In this document: positions 19,818 through 29,226 of the stretch, one piece after another
Numbering within the stretch: the stretch's first letter is position 1
How the letters are laid out: every line of letters starts with the position of its first letter
Assembly: GCA_013388455.1 (NCBI GenBank)
Contig: JACAFF010000042.1
Location: forward strand, 1 to 47,718
Direction of reading: 5' to 3'
Length of the DNA: 47,718 nt
Origin: Nitrospirota bacterium
GTDB taxonomy: Bacteria > Nitrospirota > Thermodesulfovibrionia > Thermodesulfovibrionales > SM23-35
Translations under genes and position numbers: made by a program
Notes under the pieces: generated by a model
What the model was told of the DNA's origin: nothing
The model's input: the letters and a program-made list of their open reading frames with translations, nothing else
Database searches by the model: none

Positions 19818-22800
19818 CTGATGGTGGATGTATCCTTTTAGCCGATAACGGGACTCAAGTTAAGGTACCATGGGACAGGATTTATGCTGGTTTGTCTTTT
19901 AAGTTTAAAACTTTAGAATTAAGACCAAGAGTAGGGGCAATGTTTTATAGTGGTACCAGTATAAGAGCCCAAAAGATATACATTGGAGATTTTACAGCTC
20001 CTAATTCTACTTCTGATGAATTTCCATATATGAATTTTATAACATATGTAAATTCAGCTTCACCATCTGGTTCCACGCCTACAGGACCTGCTATGTGGGA
20101 TGCTTTGAATTACTTTGCCCAGAAGGCACCTGAATACAATGGTTTTTCACCTCAATCAGGTGCAGAAGATAGATGGAAGAACCCACTTTATGTTTGTGCC
20201 CAGGGTGGGATAAATTGCCAATACGTTCCATGTGCTAACAATTTCGTAATATTATTATCAGATGGACAATGGAATACGGGAGGTGGTCCGCCGGCCTATT
20301 TTACCTGTTCAATCAATTCTGGGTTTGAAAATCATTCAGCAGATCCTGTAGTCCCAGCATATAAAATGCATATGGGATTTGATAATACCATAACAAATGC
20401 TCACATAAACGTAAAAAATGTATATACAGTAGGGCTTTTTCTTGGTGGTACTGGAGAGCATTCTATGAAGAACGTAGCGGTCTATGGTTCATTTGATAAT
20501 CTTGCAAGAACATGGCCTGCTAATTTAAATGGATACCCTAATGATACATGTTATATGGATGACTGTGGAAATGGTAGAGGTAGTCCATGTGAACCCTTAC
20601 CAGAGTCATCTCCTGATTGGGATAAAGACGGAGACAGCAACCCAGATACTTTTTATAGCGCGACAAACGCTTTGGAGATTAAAGACAACCTTCTGGATGC
20701 TGTGCTTTCTATTCTTCAGCAGATAGCATCAGGGACAGCGGCTTCAGTGCTTGCTTCTGGTGAAGGCAGCGGTGCAAACCTGGTTCAAGCCGTCTTTTAT
20801 CAGCAACGCTCTTATGGCTCAACTGATCTCTCATGGACAGGTTCTCTTAAGAACCTTTGGTATCATATTGACCCAATGCTTAGCGATGCAACAATAAGAG
20901 AAGATACATCTTCTCCTAAAGTTCTAAATTTGTCGAATGATTATATTATTAAATTCTTTTTTGATGAGATAGATTATACTACCAAGGCAAAACTTTTTTC
21001 AGATGCAAATGGGGACGGTGTCGCTGATAGCACTACTCCGGAAGCTACAGTTCTTTTTGACAATGTAAAATCACTTTGGGAAGCGGGAAAGGTATTACAT
21101 CAGACAGATCCTGCAAATAGGACTATTTATACATATGATGGAACAAGTCGAATTCTTCTGCCAGACACTATATCTGGTAGTTCTCCATTAATTTCCCTTA
21201 TGCAGGCAACAAATGCAAACGAAGCAACTGCAATATCAAGATACACAAAAGGGATTGATTTGAAAATTTGTTCTATATTAAAGAATATATGCGATGATGA
21301 TACTGATTGCATTGAAATTGGTGAAACATGTAAAGCGTATAGGAATAGAACAGCAACTTATGATGGTGTAACAAATACCTGGAAGTTGGGCGATATTGTC
21401 AATTCTACTCCAAGAATAGTTTCATGGAGCCCATTAAATTTATATTATAAAACATACCTTGATGCAACTTATAAAAAATTTACTGAGACACCTGCCTATT
21501 TAACCAGAGGTCTTGTACTTGTAGGGGCTAATGATGGAATGCTCCATGCTTTTAAATTTGGTAATTTGAAGTTGTTTGAAGAAAAATTTAAGAAAGCAGA
21601 ATTAACAGGAGCGGAACTGGGAAAAGAAGAGTGGGCTTTTATTCCTAAAAATGCATTACCTTATTTAAAATACATAGCAGATACAAATTACTGTCATATT
21701 TACACTGTAGACATGACCCCATATGTTTTTGATGCCAGTATTGGTGCTCCTGGAACAGGTGATATCTCAAATGATATAAAACCCTCAGACGGCTCTTCGT
21801 GGAGGACGATTGTTATAGGTGGAATGAGATTAGGCGGTGCATGCAAGGATGTTGCGACAGAATATGGGGTGCAAGCACCAGCATCTGGAATAGGATATTC
21901 ATCATATTTTGCGCTTGACATTACAGACCCGGCAGATCCAAAAGTCCTGTGGGAATTTTCTAATCCTAATCTCGGTTTTTCAACGACTGGACCTGCGATT
22001 ATCAAAATAAGTGAAAGAACAGATGGCATTCCTGATAATAATAAAAATGGCAAATGGTTTGTTGTATTTGCATCTGGGCCAACAGGACCAATAAATACTG
22101 TAGCACATCAGTTCAAGGGCTATTCAGACCAGAATCTGCGCATCTTCATTCTCGATTTAAAAACTGGCCAGCTGCGAAGAACAATTGATACTGGTATACA
22201 GAATGCTTTTGCTGGTTCAATGATTGGAGCTATGGTAGACTTTGATCAGATTAATACAACAAGTTCAGGTTTTTATCAGGATGATGCTCTATATTTTGGT
22301 TATACAGAAGCAGAAAATAATCCAATAACAGTAAATACGAGATGGTCAAAGGGTGGAATAATACGGATAATTACAAAAGAAGACCCTGATCCTAACAATT
22401 GGATCTGGAGCAAAGTTATAGACAATATAGGACCAGTCACAACATCTGTTAAATTATTGCAAAATTACAAAACAAAGGTTGTACGTCTCTACTTCGGGAC
22501 AGGAAGATATTATTATAAAATTGCAGATGAGATTGACGACGCAAATAATATAAGGAAACTATATGGCATAGTAGAGCCCTGCTATACAACATCGGGTTTC
22601 AATAATAATTGTGCTATTACTGTTTCTGAAAGTTCTCTTAGTTTAGCTGATACTGCTGAAGGAACAACAGACTCAGAGGGCTGGTATTTAGTGTTAGATT
22701 CATGTACCAATGAAGCAGGAGAAGAGGTTTCTTGTGCAGATTCTTCTGTGTTTTATAAGACTGAACGGATGGTTACAGACCCTCTTGCTAGTGTTATTGG

Positions 22801-23101
22801 AGCAATTTTCTTTACCACTACAAAACCAGCTTCTGATATATGTGGATTTGGAGGAATAACTCATCTGTGGGCTTTAAAATATGACACAGGAGGTGCTGTG
22901 TCAAGTTCAATTCTTAGAGGACAGGCGCTTTTGCAAGTGTCAACAGGGAGTATAGAGGAAGTCGACCTATCATCAGCTTTTACTCAAAAGGAGGGCAGGA
23001 GAACTGCTGCTATTCAGGGAGTGCCTCCTCAAGGAAATCCTCCGGGGATTCTTGTTCCGCCTACACCTATAAAAAAGATTTTTCATATAAGGGAAAGATA
23101 G
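19793..23101 (+). CDS. pilY1: PilY1 C-terminal part (downstream frame of the frameshifted gene)
   Basis: The frame opens after an in-frame stop at 19790-19792 and has no proper start; the first usable codon is a TTG at 19892. It continues the A domain (NGDGIADGG, then STPTGPAMWDALNYF and FVILLSDGQWNTGG), followed by the PilY1 C-terminal beta-propeller (PRIVSWSPLNLYYKTY, LVLVGANDGMLHAFKFG, EEWAFIPKNALPYLKYIAD, YTVDMTPYVFDA, WRTIVIGGMRLGG). The TDPL...GAIFFTTTKP and ITHLWALKYDTGG segments near the end are typical of the family. One extra base in the CC at 19793-19794 would join the two parts. Combined length ~1,315 residues, normal for PilY1. No pilV, pilW or pilX genes are next to it. Confidence 0.88.
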   Translation, partial: PYVNGDGIADGGCILLADNGTQVKVPWDRIYAGLSFKFKTLELRPRVGAMFYSGTSIRAQKIYIGDFTAPNSTSDEFPYMNFITYVNSASPSGSTPTGPAMWDALNYFAQKAPEYNGFSPQSGAEDRWKNPLYVCAQGGINCQYVPCANNFVILLSDGQWNTGGGPPAYFTCSINSGFENHSADPVVPAYKMHMGFDNTITNAHINVKNVYTVGLFLGGTGEHSMKNVAVYGSFDNLARTWPANLNGYPNDTCYMDDCGNGRGSPCEPLPESSPDWDKDGDSNPDTFYSATNALEIKDNLLDAVLSILQQIASGTAASVLASGEGSGANLVQAVFYQQRSYGSTDLSWTGSLKNLWYHIDPMLSDATIREDTSSPKVLNLSNDYIIKFFFDEIDYTTKAKLFSDANGDGVADSTTPEATVLFDNVKSLWEAGKVLHQTDPANRTIYTYDGTSRILLPDTISGSSPLISLMQATNANEATAISRYTKGIDLKICSILKNICDDDTDCIEIGETCKAYRNRTATYDGVTNTWKLGDIVNSTPRIVSWSPLNLYYKTYLDATYKKFTETPAYLTRGLVLVGANDGMLHAFKFGNLKLFEEKFKKAELTGAELGKEEWAFIPKNALPYLKYIADTNYCHIYTVDMTPYVFDASIGAPGTGDISNDIKPSDGSSWRTIVIGGMRLGGACKDVATEYGVQAPASGIGYSSYFALDITDPADPKVLWEFSNPNLGFSTTGPAIIKISERTDGIPDNNKNGKWFVVFASGPTGPINTVAHQFKGYSDQNLRIFILDLKTGQLRRTIDTGIQNAFAGSMIGAMVDFDQINTTSSGFYQDDALYFGYTEAENNPITVNTRWSKGGIIRIITKEDPDPNNWIWSKVIDNIGPVTTSVKLLQNYKTKVVRLYFGTGRYYYKIADEIDDANNIRKLYGIVEPCYTTSGFNNNCAITVSESSLSLADTAEGTTDSEGWYLVLDSCTNEAGEEVSCADSSVFYKTERMVTDPLASVIGAIFFTTTKPASDICGFGGITHLWALKYDTGGAVSSSILRGQALLQVSTGSIEEVDLSSAFTQKEGRRTAAIQGVPPQGNPPGILVPPTPIKKIFHIRER

Positions 23102-23139
23102 GAGATAGTCCATATTAATTCAAGGGATTCTCCATCTTC

Positions 23140-24393
23140 TTACTCTTTCACTCTTCTAATATCAGCCCCGATCTTTTTTAGTTTTTCTTCCATTTTTTCA
23201 TATCCTCTGTCAAGATGGTATATTCGGTGTATTGTTGTTTCTCCCTTTGCAGCAAGAGCTGCAATAATAAGAGATGCACTTGCTCTGAGATCAGTAGCCA
23301 TAAGTGGTGCACCTTTTAATATTGAGACTCCTTTTACTGTAGCAATTCCACCTTCAACGGTTATATCAGCTCCCATCCTGTTTAGTTCAGCAACATGCAT
23401 AAACCTATTTTCAAAAATCGTTTCTCTAATAACACTTATACCGTCAGAGATGCACATGAGCGCCATGAATTGTGCCTGCATATCAGTAGGAAAACCTGGG
23501 TAAGGCATAGTTTTTATATCAGTAGATTTTAGTCTTTGTGGTCCTACAACACGGATATCATCTGATGAATATTCAAAATGTAGGCCGGCTTCCTTCAACT
23601 TCATAACGATTGAGTCAAGATGTTCTATATTACATCCTTTTAGTAACAACTCTCCACCTGTGATACCGGCGATTGTCATGAATGTTCCTGCTTCTATCCT
23701 GTCGGGAATTATAGAATATTGAATCGGTTTTAAATCGTCAACACCTTCGATTTCAATAACACTTTCACCTGCTCCATGTATCTTAGCGCCCATTGATATG
23801 AGAAACTGTGCAAGATCTCTTACTTCTGGTTCTCTCGCAGCATTTTCAAGTAAAGTTTTTCCCTTTGCAAGGGTGGCAGCCATCATAAGGTTTTCAGTTC
23901 CTGTTACTGTTGGGATATCAAGGTATATTGAGTTTCCTTTTAATCTTTTAGTCTTTGCAACTATATATCCTGATTCAAGCTTAATATCAGCACCCATCTT
24001 TTCAAGCCCTGTTAAATGAAGATTTACAGGTCTTGCTCCTATAGCACATCCTCCAGGAAGTGATACCTTCGCTCTTCCAAATCTTGCAAGCAAAGGCCCG
24101 AGAATAAGTATTGAAGCGCGCATTGTTCTTACGAGATCATACGGTGCATCAAAATTACTGATTTTGCTTGTGCTTATAACAACTGAATTATCTTTATAGT
24201 TGAAAAAAACTCCCAGATGTGAGAGAATTTTACCCATCGTAAGAATATCTTTTAAATAAGGTACCCTTTTAATCTCGGTATTTCCACTTGTTAGAAGGGA
24301 TGCTGCCATAATAGGAAGAGCAGCATTTTTTGCACCGCTTATTTCAACTATCCCTTTTAATTTTTTACCACCATGGATTACAAGTTTATGCAC
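23140..24393 (-). CDS. murA: UDP-N-acetylglucosamine 1-carboxyvinyltransferase
   Basis: The first committed enzyme of peptidoglycan synthesis, adding enolpyruvate from PEP to UDP-GlcNAc; 417 residues, the family norm. Seen: ISGAKNAALPIMAASLL (Lys22 region), LPGGCAIGARPVNLHL with the catalytic Cys (about 116), which means the fosfomycin-target residue is kept, PDRIEAGTFM, PYPGFPTDMQAQFMAL and RASASLIIAALAAKG. The start is GTG 24393 with GAGGTG about six bases upstream. It is convergent with pilY1 and divergent from the PRC/MgtE-N gene, so it appears to be its own transcription unit. Confidence 0.97.
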   Translation of the reverse strand: MHKLVIHGGKKLKGIVEISGAKNAALPIMAASLLTSGNTEIKRVPYLKDILTMGKILSHLGVFFNYKDNSVVISTSKISNFDAPYDLVRTMRASILILGPLLARFGRAKVSLPGGCAIGARPVNLHLTGLEKMGADIKLESGYIVAKTKRLKGNSIYLDIPTVTGTENLMMAATLAKGKTLLENAAREPEVRDLAQFLISMGAKIHGAGESVIEIEGVDDLKPIQYSIIPDRIEAGTFMTIAGITGGELLLKGCNIEHLDSIVMKLKEAGLHFEYSSDDIRVVGPQRLKSTDIKTMPYPGFPTDMQAQFMALMCISDGISVIRETIFENRFMHVAELNRMGADITVEGGIATVKGVSILKGAPLMATDLRASASLIIAALAAKGETTIHRIYHLDRGYEKMEEKLKKIGADIRRVKE

Positions 24394-24595
24394 TTTACAC
24401 CTCTTTAATAAGTAATTCTTGAGATTGACTAAATTTTAAATATTTTGACAGCTAAGAGTTAAATTATAATACTAAATTGAAGGAATTTAGAATATTGCAA
24501 ACTATATGTTGCTTTTAGCCGTGCAAATTTGGAAAATATAGCAATCTAAAACTATTTAATTTTATGTTATTAATAAAAGGTTGGGGGGTTCCATA

Positions 24596-25858
24596 ATGCC
24601 CTTTTTCGGTGAACTTTTTGTCAGTGAGATATTGAGGAAACCAGTACTTGATCCAAAAGGTGAAGAACTTGGCAAAGTAAAAGACCTTATTGTCATAAAG
24701 GGAGAACCGTTACCAAAGATATCTGCTTTGATTATTGAAAGAAGAAAAAAGATTTATAAGCTCCCATGGTATGAGCTGAATATATTCAATAAGAGAATAA
24801 TATCTTCTAAAATATACCCAGAAGGATTAACTCCTTATGAATATGATGAAAAGGACCTTTTAATACTGAGAGATATACTCGATAAACAAATCGTTGATGC
24901 AAATGGAGCAAAAGTTGTAAGAGTGAATGACGTGAAACTTGAAGGTTATAAAGATGAAGCTATACTTATTGCAGTGGATGTTGGAATGAGAGGTATTATG
25001 CGAAGATTGGGTATGGAAAGAAGTGGAGAGGACTTAATGAAACTCTTTAAAAAGCACCTTCCTTACAATTTGATAAGCTGGAATTATATTCAGCCACTTG
25101 AACCAAAACTGACACAGATATCACTAAAAGTTCCAAGGCAGATGCTGGCTGAATTACATCCTGCAGACATTGCAGAGATTATAAGTCAAGTTTCACATAA
25201 AGAAGGGGCAACTTTCTTCAAAGGGCTTGATATCGAAACAGCAGCAGAAGCACTTTCAGAACTCCAGCCAGATGTGCAGGTGGATATCATAAGCGATATG
25301 GAAACAGATAAGGCTGCTGATATAATCGAAGAAATGCCACCTGATGAAGCTGCTGATATACTAAGTGACCTTCCCGCAGACAAAGCAAAAGAAATACTTG
25401 AACATATTGAAAAAGAGGATGCAGAAGATATACAGGAACTCTTGAGCCATGAAGAGGATACAGCAGGAGGTTTGATGACTAACGAGTATATTGCTTATAC
25501 TCCTGATACTACTGTGAGAAAGGCTATTGATAATTTTAAGAAAGATGCAGAAGAGGTTGAAACTGTGTATTACATATATATAATAGATGACGAGGAAAAG
25601 CTCTGTGGGGTTGTATCATTAAGGGACTTACTTCTTGCAAGGCTTGATGATAAGCTTTCAGAAATTATGGAGACAAAATTAAAAACAGTAACGCCTGATG
25701 TGGATGAAGGTGAGGTAGCTGCAATTATTTCAAAATATAATCTTGTGGCCATTCCTGTTATAGACAATGAAGGACATTTACTCGGGATAGTAACAGTAGA
25801 TGATATTATGGATAGGATACTTCCACCAACAGCTAAGCGCAAAAGGAGAATGGTGTGA
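24596..25858 (+). CDS. Cytosolic PRC-barrel / MgtE N-domain / CBS-pair protein (predicted divalent-cation sensor)
   Basis: A 420-residue soluble protein with two PRC-barrel-like segments (about 8-75, KPVLDPKGEELGKVKDL; and 80-150, DKQIVDANGAKVVRVNDV), the MgtE N superhelical domain (about 165-285, repeated DxxxADIIEEMPPDEAADIL-type units) and a CBS pair (about 285-405, ending VAIPVIDNEGHLLGIVTVDDIMDRILPP). MgtE N plus CBS is the Mg-sensing gate of MgtE channels, but the channel domain is absent. Instead the next gene, an Nramp-type transporter, starts within its stop codon. ATG 24596 is chosen over TTG 24581 because GGGGGG lies seven bases before it. Likely a regulator of that transporter. 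Confidence 0.88.
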   Translation: MPFFGELFVSEILRKPVLDPKGEELGKVKDLIVIKGEPLPKISALIIERRKKIYKLPWYELNIFNKRIISSKIYPEGLTPYEYDEKDLLILRDILDKQIVDANGAKVVRVNDVKLEGYKDEAILIAVDVGMRGIMRRLGMERSGEDLMKLFKKHLPYNLISWNYIQPLEPKLTQISLKVPRQMLAELHPADIAEIISQVSHKEGATFFKGLDIETAAEALSELQPDVQVDIISDMETDKAADIIEEMPPDEAADILSDLPADKAKEILEHIEKEDAEDIQELLSHEEDTAGGLMTNEYIAYTPDTTVRKAIDNFKKDAEEVETVYYIYIIDDEEKLCGVVSLRDLLLARLDDKLSEIMETKLKTVTPDVDEGEVAAIISKYNLVAIPVIDNEGHLLGIVTVDDIMDRILPPTAKRKRRMV

Positions 25859-27087
25859 AACTCTGGAAAAAGTTCTCAATCTTTCTTGCTGTTATGGGAC
25901 CTGGAATAATAACTGCAAATATTGATAACGATGCAACCGGTATTACAACTTATTCTGTGTCAGGTGCACATTTCGGTTATTCTCTTTTATGGATGCTTAT
26001 CCCTACTACAATTGCCCTAATAGTCATACAAGAAATGATAGGAAGAATGGGTGTTATAACAGGAAAAGGGCTTTCAGATCTTATAAGAGAAAATTATGGC
26101 ATAAGATCAACATTTTTCGTTATGGTCGTTTTACTCATTGCAAACTTTGGGACAACCGTTGGTAATTTCTCAGGATTGGCAGCAAGTACAGAAGCCATCG
26201 GACTTAGCAAATATATAATCGTTCCCATAGGAGCTATATCCATATGGATTCTTGTTACAAGAGGGGGGTATAGAACTGTTGAAAAAATACTTCTTATAGC
26301 GTGTCTTCTATACTTCGGTTATGTTATCTCTGGTTTTATTGCCAAACCAGATTGGGCTGAAGTCTTTAAAGGGACTTTTATTCCTCAAATACAATGGAAT
26401 TTTGGATATATTTTCCTTACCATAGCAATTATCGGGACAACGATAACTCCATGGATGCAATTCTATCTTCAAGGTTCTATTGCGGATAAGGGTATAAGAC
26501 AAGAGGACTACAAATTATCAAGGCTTGATGTAATAATAGGTTGTTCTATGACAGATATTATAGCCTTTTTCATAATGGTTACCTGCGCAGTAACTCTTTT
26601 TGCACACGGTATTAAAATAAATGAAGCTTCAGAGGCAGCTTTGGCACTTAAACCGCTTGCAGGCACTTATGCTTCTTATCTGTTTGCCATCTGCTTGGCA
26701 AATGGCTCACTTCTTGGAGCAATAATTGTTCCTCTTTCGTCCGCCTATTGTATATGTGAAGCTATGGGATGGGAAAGAGGTGTGAATAAAACATTTAAAG
26801 AGGCGCCACAATTTATGTGGATATATACCTTATTAATAGTTATACCTGCCCTATTAGTACTCATACCCGGAGCTCCTCTTGTCTTACTCATGGTTTTAGC
26901 ATCTTTTCTAAATGGAATACTCTTGCCTATAGTTTTAGTCTATGCAATATCACTCGTGAATAATAGAAACATAATGGGAGATTATGTTAATTCAAAAAAT
27001 TATAACTATATTTCATGGGGAACAGTGATAATTATCATAGCTCTAACAGTATTTATATTAGTAACTATGTTTTTGCCAATAAGTTAA
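25855..27087 (+). CDS. Nramp-family divalent metal transporter (divergent metal-site motifs)
   Basis: A 410-residue, ~11-helix Nramp (SLC11) protein. The first helix reads GPGIITANIDNDATGITTYS: the canonical metal-binding DPGN of MntH/DMT1 is replaced by NIDND-ATG. The sixth-helix MPHN is replaced by TPWMQFY, losing the usual metal-site Met. Loss of that Met and a changed DPGN are features known from Nramp-related Mg transporters, so Mg (or another hard cation) is a reasonable substrate. The GTG start overlaps the previous gene's stop (GTGTGA) with AAGGAG just upstream, so sensor and transporter are translationally coupled. mtnA follows 25 bases later. Confidence 0.85.
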   Translation: MKLWKKFSIFLAVMGPGIITANIDNDATGITTYSVSGAHFGYSLLWMLIPTTIALIVIQEMIGRMGVITGKGLSDLIRENYGIRSTFFVMVVLLIANFGTTVGNFSGLAASTEAIGLSKYIIVPIGAISIWILVTRGGYRTVEKILLIACLLYFGYVISGFIAKPDWAEVFKGTFIPQIQWNFGYIFLTIAIIGTTITPWMQFYLQGSIADKGIRQEDYKLSRLDVIIGCSMTDIIAFFIMVTCAVTLFAHGIKINEASEAALALKPLAGTYASYLFAICLANGSLLGAIIVPLSSAYCICEAMGWERGVNKTFKEAPQFMWIYTLLIVIPALLVLIPGAPLVLLMVLASFLNGILLPIVLVYAISLVNNRNIMGDYVNSKNYNYISWGTVIIIIALTVFILVTMFLPIS

Positions 27088-27112
27088 TAATTTATGGGAC
27101 TATATTTAAAAT

Positions 27113-28183
27113 ATGTTTAAAACTATAAACTGGGTTGATGGAAAAGTTGTAATGCTCGATCAGACAAAACTACCTTTCGAGGTTGTTTATATAGAATGCT
27201 CTGATTACAAAAAAGTCGCGGAAGGAATCAGGAAATTATGGATTCGCGGTGCTCCAGCGATTGGAATAGCAGCCGCAATGGGTATAGCAATTGGAGCACA
27301 GGAAATAAAAGCAGACAATTTTGAGGAATTTGTTAAAAACTTAGACATTATTTTTAATGAAATGCTTTCTACAAGACCTACCGCAGTAAATATTCACTGG
27401 TCTATAGAGAGGATAAAGAGTATTTTAATAAGAAATAGGGAAGAATCAATAAGCAGATTAAAAGAAATCATTATTGAGGAATCTCAGAAAATACTATCAG
27501 AGGACATCTTAGCAAATAGATCTATAGGAAGGTGGGGTGCAGAATTCATCAGTGACGGTGACACAATTCTGACACATTGTAATGCTGGCGCTCTTGCAAC
27601 AGGAGGATACGGAACTGCAACAGCGCCTATACTTGTAGCAAAAGAACATGGAAAAAAATTTCAGGTTATTGTGGACGAAACAAGGCCTGTTTTACAAGGA
27701 GCAAGGTTGACAGCATGGGAACTCATGCAGGAGGGAATACCTGTAACTCTTATAACTGATAATACAGCCGGAGCACTTATGCAAAACAAAGAAATAGACT
27801 TTGTTATTGTTGGGACTGATAGAACAGCAAAGAATGGTGACGTTGCAAATAAGATAGGCACTTATCCCCTGGCGGTTCTCTGCAAAGAAAACAAAATTCC
27901 ATTCTATGTTGCTGCACCATTAAGCAGTATTGACTTTGAAATTCCATCAGGAGAATATATTCCTATAGAAGAACGTGGACCAGAAGAAGTTACAAACATA
28001 TTTGGTAAATGTAGGATTGCACCTGAAGGTGTAAAGGTAAGAAACATTGCTTTTGACGTTACTCCACATAAATATATAACAGCCATAATTACTGAAAAAG
28101 GAGCATTTAGACCAAAAGATATAAGAAAGTTGATAGAACCAAAAATAGATATCGAAAAGTATAGATACAAACCAACAGATTAA
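27113..28183 (+). CDS. mtnA: S-methyl-5-thioribose-1-phosphate isomerase
   Basis: A 356-residue protein with the family's RGAPAIGIAAAMG motif (45-57), the catalytic Cys in LTHCNAGALATGGYGT (Cys156) and the catalytic Asp in GTDRTAKNGDVANKIGTY (Asp236). It isomerises methylthioribose-1-phosphate to methylthioribulose-1-phosphate in the methionine salvage pathway; both catalytic residues distinguish it from eIF2B subunits. No other salvage genes are in the window. No clear ribosome binding site at ATG 27113; the gene probably depends on the upstream transcript. Confidence 0.95.
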   Translation: MFKTINWVDGKVVMLDQTKLPFEVVYIECSDYKKVAEGIRKLWIRGAPAIGIAAAMGIAIGAQEIKADNFEEFVKNLDIIFNEMLSTRPTAVNIHWSIERIKSILIRNREESISRLKEIIIEESQKILSEDILANRSIGRWGAEFISDGDTILTHCNAGALATGGYGTATAPILVAKEHGKKFQVIVDETRPVLQGARLTAWELMQEGIPVTLITDNTAGALMQNKEIDFVIVGTDRTAKNGDVANKIGTYPLAVLCKENKIPFYVAAPLSSIDFEIPSGEYIPIEERGPEEVTNIFGKCRIAPEGVKVRNIAFDVTPHKYITAIITEKGAFRPKDIRKLIEPKIDIEKYRYKPTD

Positions 28184-28254
28184 AAATCTTAATATTATTA
28201 ACAATATTGACCATGCTCTTGACTTTAAAATATCAGCTACCCTACCATTAAAGA

Positions 28255-29226
28255 ATGCAACTTGAGGATATTTTCACAAGCTACGAATCTGAACTTAGAA
28301 AAGTGGAAGAGAGATTAAGGAGTTTATTTAAAAGTCCAGTTTTTACAATACCACTCATTGGAAAGCATATACTTGATGGTGGGGGAAAAAGACTCAGACC
28401 ACTGATTCACATACTCAGTTGTGAACTGGCAGGTTTTAAGAGTGATATTTGTTTAACAATTGCAGCAATTATTGAATCTATTCATACTGCTTCGTTATTG
28501 CACGATGATGTGATTGACGGTGCTGAAATTCGTAGAGGCAAAAAACCCGCTCATGCTATATGGGGAAACCAGATTGTTATCCTTGTTGGAGATTTCCTAT
28601 ATTCAAATGCACTAAGGATTGCTGTTATGCAGAATAACCAGAGAATTATGGAAACTCTTTCAGAAGCAACAACAAGAATGACAGAAGGCGAAATACTTCA
28701 GCTTTCAAAAGTTAGCGACCCTGATATTACAGAAGAAGAATATATGAATATAATATCTGCGAAGACTGCCTCTTTAATATCAGCTGCCTGTAAATTGGGT
28801 GCTATACTCGGGTCGCTTACAGAAGAAAAGGAAAATGCCCTTACGAGATTCGGAACAAAAATAGGTATTGCTTTCCAGATGGCTGATGATATACTTGATT
28901 ATATGGCAGATGAGAACAACCTCGGAAAAAAACTGGGAAAAGATTTGAAAGAAGGTAAAATAACCCTTCCGCTTATTTATCTTCTTAAAGTAGTAGATGA
29001 TAATGAGAAAAAAGAACTCAGGGAAATAATAAAAACAGGCTCACGAAAAGCAGGGCTAATTAAAATACTAAGACTGTTTAAAAAGTATAATTCCATTGAG
29101 CTTTCTCTCCAGAGGGCAGAAAAATTAATAGATGAAGCCAAGGTTGACTTATCCATTTTCCCTGACTCATCGGCAAAGACTGCACTTTTTACTATTGCTG
29201 ACTATACTCTTCAAAGAGGAAAGTAA
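28255..29226 (+). CDS. Polyprenyl diphosphate synthase (long-chain, IspB-type)
   Basis: A 323-residue trans-prenyltransferase with GGGKRLRPL (isopentenyl-diphosphate binding), the first Asp-rich motif DDVID (84-88) and the second DDILD (about 212-216, in QMADDILDYM), plus GKDLKEGKITLPLIYLL. Small residues (Ala, Ser) four and five positions before the first Asp motif favour long products (C35-C50), as needed for quinone side chains. The exact chain length cannot be read. The stop TAA is followed immediately by the ATG of the AMMECR1 gene. ATG 28255 lacks a clear ribosome binding site. Confidence 0.92.
   Translation: MQLEDIFTSYESELRKVEERLRSLFKSPVFTIPLIGKHILDGGGKRLRPLIHILSCELAGFKSDICLTIAAIIESIHTASLLHDDVIDGAEIRRGKKPAHAIWGNQIVILVGDFLYSNALRIAVMQNNQRIMETLSEATTRMTEGEILQLSKVSDPDITEEEYMNIISAKTASLISAACKLGAILGSLTEEKENALTRFGTKIGIAFQMADDILDYMADENNLGKKLGKDLKEGKITLPLIYLLKVVDDNEKKELREIIKTGSRKAGLIKILRLFKKYNSIELSLQRAEKLIDEAKVDLSIFPDSSAKTALFTIADYTLQRGK

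Follow-up and report, generated by a model that had tools for sequence, protein, structure and literature searches.

Two genes overlap in a 47,718-nucleotide stretch of Nitrospirota DNA (the window): one encodes a protein resembling the cytosolic Mg2+-sensing part of the channel MgtE, the other a transporter of the Nramp family. Do they form one Mg2+ uptake system, with a sensor freed from its own channel controlling an unrelated carrier? The core of this idea, that an MgtE sensor without its channel exerts feedback on an Nramp-like Mg transporter, is already published: most NrmT genes have a gene for the cytoplasmic domain of MgtE beside them, and feedback regulation was proposed (Shin et al., 2014; PMC4072509).

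Layout of the locus

The sequence-only reading placed the start of the transporter gene within the stop codon of the sensor gene, and the two reading frames do share 4 bp (Table 1). The same -4 overlap occurs at 17 of the 24 loci of the Nitrospirota clade described below. A murA-like gene lies upstream of the sensor gene in divergent orientation, mtnA follows 25 bp downstream of the Nramp gene, and the nearest named relatives are Nitrospirota/Thermodesulfovibrionia genomes.

Table 1. Genes, domains and metal-site positions of the sensor-carrier locus, in window coordinates.
Feature	Position	Strand	Details
Sensor gene: PRC - PRC-like - MgtE_N - CBS - CBS	24596..25858	+	ATG start; 420 aa; soluble; no channel domain
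First PRC-barrel unit, sensor residues 5-69	24608..24802	+	PF05239, 29.1 bits (cut-off 21.2)
Second, PRC-like unit, sensor residues 89-170	24860..25105	+	sub-threshold PRC match; beta-rich by prediction
MgtE N superhelix, sensor residues 187-288	25154..25459	+	Mg-site residues E218, D250, D254
CBS pair, sensor residues 289-410	25460..25825	+	Mg-site residues D403, D406; stops short of plug helix
4-bp overlap of the two genes	25855..25858	+	sensor stop (TGA) / transporter start (GTG)
NRMT-type Nramp transporter gene	25855..27087	+	GTG start; 410 aa; full length
TM1 metal-site motif of carrier, NIDNDATG	25918..25941	+	D26, G29
Asn104 of carrier	26164..26166	+	TM3 Glu position (Glu133 in EleNRMT)
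TM6 metal-site motif of carrier, IGTTITPWMQF	26431..26463	+	T195; T198 at Met position
Ser350 of carrier	26902..26904	+	TM10 Gln position (Gln379 in EleNRMT)

A detached MgtE sensor

Pfam recovers PRC (8.7e-08), MgtE_N (3.3e-29) and two CBS domains (5.5e-21) in the sensor. Neither the MgtE channel domain (PF01769) nor the plug helix was found by Pfam and alignment, the protein terminating after the CBS pair, which agrees with the original description of an MgtE N domain and CBS pair without a channel. That description also counted two PRC units; the first is secure, whereas the second scores 14.2 bits by sequence, below the cut-off, and is a probable unit that structure prediction renders as a beta-rich domain. 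Only MgtE and CBS entries were among the matches listed in a structure comparison, in which PRC folds were barely covered. A broken MgtE that had recently lost its channel was dropped as an explanation, since the shortened protein is conserved in different phyla.

The N superhelix and CBS pair resemble the cytosolic domain of Thermus thermophilus MgtE (2yvy/2zy9; 34% identity, Z 27.8). Taking the Mg-site definitions from PMC5882242 and the functional roles from PMC5882242 and PMC5529423, the alignment retains the ligands of Mg4 (MgtE D91/D247, here D250/D403), Mg6 (D95, here D254, in 91/91 sequences) and Mg7 (E59, here E218), and the Mg-bridging Asp across the N-CBS interface is kept in 84-91 of 91 sensor sequences. 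The ATP-site residues Tyr170, Arg187 and Asp188 are also shared. Unlike Thermus MgtE, the sensor has PRC units added at its N terminus, a naturally occurring Asn382 for the Mg5 residue Asp226, and Leu383 for the adenine-stacking Phe227; with the channel and plug helix it also lacks the Mg2 and Mg3 ligands E258/D259. Because Mg4, Mg6 and Mg7 are cytosolic sites that help to close MgtE, a Mg-closed clamp is plausible even without the channel.

Conservation within the sensor peaks in the PRC-like unit, with 22/82 columns conserved at 90% or more against 16/102 in the MgtE part; its invariant residues are D96, Q98, D101, R109, N111, D112, D128, G133, R136, R137 and W162. On sequence grounds, this unit is a candidate docking surface for the carrier.

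An NRMT-type carrier

The carrier matches the Pfam Nramp family over its full length (2.7e-95). Its best solved relative is EleNRMT from Eggerthella lenta (7qia; PMC8806188), at 352 bits and ~43% identity along the whole length, against 111 bits for MntH, and a model of a relative from the same order (L075) superposes on 7qia with Z 59.1 and 1.6 Å over 391 residues. The aligned ion site comprises Asp26, Gly29, Thr195 and Thr198; relative to canonical Nramp, Thr198 takes the place of the Met and Trp that of the His. The motifs first read from the sequence alone, NIDND-ATG for DPGN and TPWM(QF) for MPHN with loss of the Met, were therefore correctly described, and the carrier did not turn out to be a canonical Mn transporter with an intact metal site.

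NRMTs are defined by a DxxG-TxxA/T signature in TM1/TM6 (Ramanadane et al., PMC8806188), and because the site of the carrier (D26-x-x-G29, T195-x-x-T198) fits this definition, its sequence assigns it to NRMT and not to MntH/Nramp. The canonical signature (DxxN in TM1, A/CxxM in TM6) is not present in the carrier, and the tree, in which EleNRMT's own branch is long, splits off all canonical Nramp rows at 100. We dropped a canonical Mn/Fe MntH identity, with which the metal site and tree disagree. The carrier shares the LeuT-type fold and family PF01566 with canonical MntH/Nramp, such as DraNramp (8e60) and the paralogues L003-L007 from five genomes of the order, but those paralogues have the DPGN/MPHN site that it lacks, and no adjoining sensor gene.

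The likeness to EleNRMT extends to the fold and the metal-site Asp/Gly/Thr, but the carrier has Thr198 for Ala at the Met position, Ser350 for Gln379 and Asn104 for Glu133. The last two replace the TM10 Gln and TM3 Glu, which are typical of NRMTs and lie outside the published definition. EleNRMT requires Gln379 for transport, and in the outgroup the TM3 Glu is the sole conserved charge (PMC9606685). The alignment of 113 proteins contains 52 in which Ala at the Met position goes with the TM10 Gln, and 48 in which Thr goes with Ser/Ala at TM10, most of these also with Asn in place of the TM3 Glu; Ala with a lost TM10 Gln occurs in 0/113. Other sampled NRMTs retain the TM10 Gln, and nearly all retain the TM3 Glu. 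The Nitrospirota clade forms 44 rows in the thinned tree, with full support. Its changed positions (Thr at the Met site, Ser/Ala for the TM10 Gln, mostly Asn for the TM3 Glu) are new here, and no description of a Thr/Ser-Ala subtype was found in the literature searched. Compared with nearby Nitrospirota pairs of the Ala/Gln type, the clade's sensors are 66-73% identical and its carriers only 57-60%; the signal may have stayed constant while the carrier changed.

Linkage of sensor and carrier

Sensor and NRMT genes are adjacent in 35/41 genomes of the order. In one more (G023) both are present on different contigs, and the remaining five have no bona fide MgtE_N match (four lack Nramp, and G035 has a canonical Nramp only). 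In a set of 80 related genome loci spanning many phyla, the sensor is directly upstream of the NRMT in 66 and in another adjacent arrangement in 4; it is missing despite an adequate upstream flank in 5, with 5 undecidable at contig ends, and none of the 80 holds a natural single-ORF fusion. On plasmids, 16 of 18 full-length sensors stand beside an Nramp gene and the other two beside DUF1003, counting two Streptomyces clavuligerus records assumed to resemble the third. A survey of this pairing had been proposed from the sequence, and the pairing proves neither rare nor random but far beyond chance. Since the gene order of adjacent pairs varies (sensor first, Nramp first or convergent, across phyla and plasmids), we argue for a functional tie. 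Sensor and carrier distances over 79 pairs correlate at r = 0.74, a value reached by 0/2000 permutations, which species history explains equally well.

Full-length PRC-MgtE_N-CBS sensors of Nonomuraea and Nocardia (L139:3989-5678 and L137:2156-5859) are followed by a DUF1003 membrane protein, not an Nramp. The partners of the sensor thus belong to two families or more, and its pairing with DUF1003 is also new here.

The order contains a second, divergent pair in reversed arrangement, Nramp first (L147:1881-4629), which is close to Citrobacter and Serratia plasmid pairs. Plasmid pairs L134, L132, L133 and L136 have ArsR regulators, heavy-metal P-type ATPases or MgtC/SapB genes in their vicinity. 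At two loci (L119:3374-4946 and L122:3585-4887) the sensor beside the NRMT occupies two overlapping frames, a split also reported for C. acetobutylicum; it is either natural or a sequencing error.

Magnesium importers in the genome

The window genome (99.4% complete) has one Nramp gene and one MgtE_N gene. Family searches, the means by which importers were sought, found no CorA, MgtE channel or ZIP in this genome and no MgtA above the cut-off. It carries FeoB and encodes a CNNM/CorC-type protein, a class usually linked to Mg efflux. From these searches the NRMT/sensor pair seems to be the only recognisable Mg importer of this branch. An unrecognised Mg importer could nevertheless be present, because three near-complete genomes of the same order (G026, G028, G040) show no CorA, MgtE channel, NRMT or MgtA above the cut-off. 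Elsewhere in the window genome, a ZnuA-type binding-protein operon behind a Fur-family regulator gene (L148; G000:C34:14500-19500) is apparently frame-disrupted.

Rfam gave no M-box match at positions 22500-28500, and 0/41 genomes of the order have one, so we dropped an M-box-controlled operon. M-box riboswitches, a feature of some NRMTs and not a defining one, do lie upstream of related NRMT loci (L081, L095, L101, L114, L117), which favours the Mg2+ reading below. Two of these, the Peptococcaceae genes L101 and L114, have the M-box directly upstream and no sensor in the flank, an arrangement of riboswitch control without an adjacent sensor.

A proposed mechanism

We consider it on balance probable that the locus encodes a Mg2+ importer and its detached Mg2+ feedback sensor. 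This reading rests directly on domain make-up, linkage, residue conservation and the absence of other recognisable Mg importers, and from these we infer the substrate, the docking surface and the direction of control. Of the two-part uptake system suggested by the sequence-only reading, the parts stand, as a detached MgtE sensor with an NRMT-type carrier (by recurrent linkage and conserved Mg-site residues); its Mg substrate and its gating belong to what we infer.

The carrier would import Mg2+, and probably Mn2+ too, largely hydrated and without proton coupling. The upstream protein would be the MgtE cytosolic Mg2+ sensor cut before the plug helix, with PRC domains replacing the membrane anchor. 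At low cytosolic Mg2+ its N and CBS domains would be loose and the carrier active; at high cytosolic Mg2+, ions at the N-CBS interface (the equivalents of Mg4, Mg6 and Mg7) would close the clamp, and the closed sensor, docked through its PRC part, would inhibit the carrier. The sensor thus probably switches the carrier off once cellular Mg is sufficient. A fused sensor-carrier model, made by reading through the stops of the in-frame relative L075, had a pTM of 0.68, which without inter-domain error establishes no interface. Its PRC-like unit was modelled with higher confidence than in the window sensor alone, which is no evidence for docking as sequence and alignment differ.

Against this best reading we count the published Acidobacterium capsulatum test, the activity of EleNRMT, which transports in liposomes without any sensor (PMC8806188), the five sensor-less NRMT loci, the lost TM10 Gln and the missing M-box.

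Other explanations

The main rival reading, which we think unlikely but the strongest of the alternatives, is that the carrier descends from NRMTs and imports mainly Mn2+ (or Fe2+), beside an MgtE-like protein that responds to Mn2+ or to the total divalent load. In A. capsulatum, ACP_2977, encoded beside the same type of sensor, gave full rescue of Mn uptake and weak rescue of Mg uptake (PMC4072509). The window genome has no second Nramp and its sole ZnuA-type operon looks broken, so that it offers no other obvious candidate for Mn import. However, the carrier has lost the soft Met ligand, the sensor ligands match the Mg sites of MgtE, and the genome would be left with no recognisable Mg importer; for the Fe2+ version, FeoB is already available.

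The sensor might instead be an assembly, stability or scaffold partner or a metal chaperone, docking by its PRC part, with an MgtE part that passively buffers Mg or acts as a tether. The greater invariance of the PRC-like unit fits this, as does the presence of sensors beside DUF1003 proteins, and co-expression of the MgtE-like gene with its neighbour (ACP_2976/2977) made no difference to rescue (PMC4072509). A passive tether would have no need of the near-universal Mg-bridging Asp, however, and we judge this explanation quite improbable. That adjacency is merely an inherited operon accident is hardly credible: linkage within one order is not independent evidence and the two genes persist apart in G023, but adjacency recurs in differing gene orders, across phyla and on plasmids, and sensor and NRMT are absent together.

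Relation to known pairs and implications

The preferred reading, an importer with a detached feedback sensor, puts the locus beside the published NrmT/MgtE-like pairs (the C. acetobutylicum Ca_c0685 operon and ACP_2976/2977; PMC4072509), with the same two families side by side and the same proposed role. It differs from them in lacking an M-box, in its replaced TM10 Gln and TM3 Glu and Thr at the Met site, in the 4-bp gene overlap and in the absence of any other Mg importer found in the genome. Two further points are new here: by alignment, the sensor keeps the N-CBS ligands of Mg4, Mg6 and Mg7 without the plug helix, and the searches of the window genome gave no CorA, MgtE channel, MgtA above the cut-off or M-box.

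More tentatively, and with doubt prevailing, the clade may be a distinct NRMT subtype with a rebuilt ion path, acting as the principal Mg2+ importer of the cell and controlled post-translationally by the detached MgtE sensor, itself a reusable module that regulates, at the least, NRMT and the unrelated membrane protein DUF1003.

The regulation of NRMTs has been a standing question since 2014. Across these pairs the sensor retains the N-CBS Mg clamp and the PRC-like unit but can dispense with the plug helix, which opens the gating idea to direct test. Its pairing with DUF1003 is a hint that this uncharacterised membrane family has a part in Mg homeostasis. A Mg2+ carrier that lacks the TM10 Gln, a residue regarded as essential to transport, would, if the reading is true, also offer a useful way to probe NRMT function.
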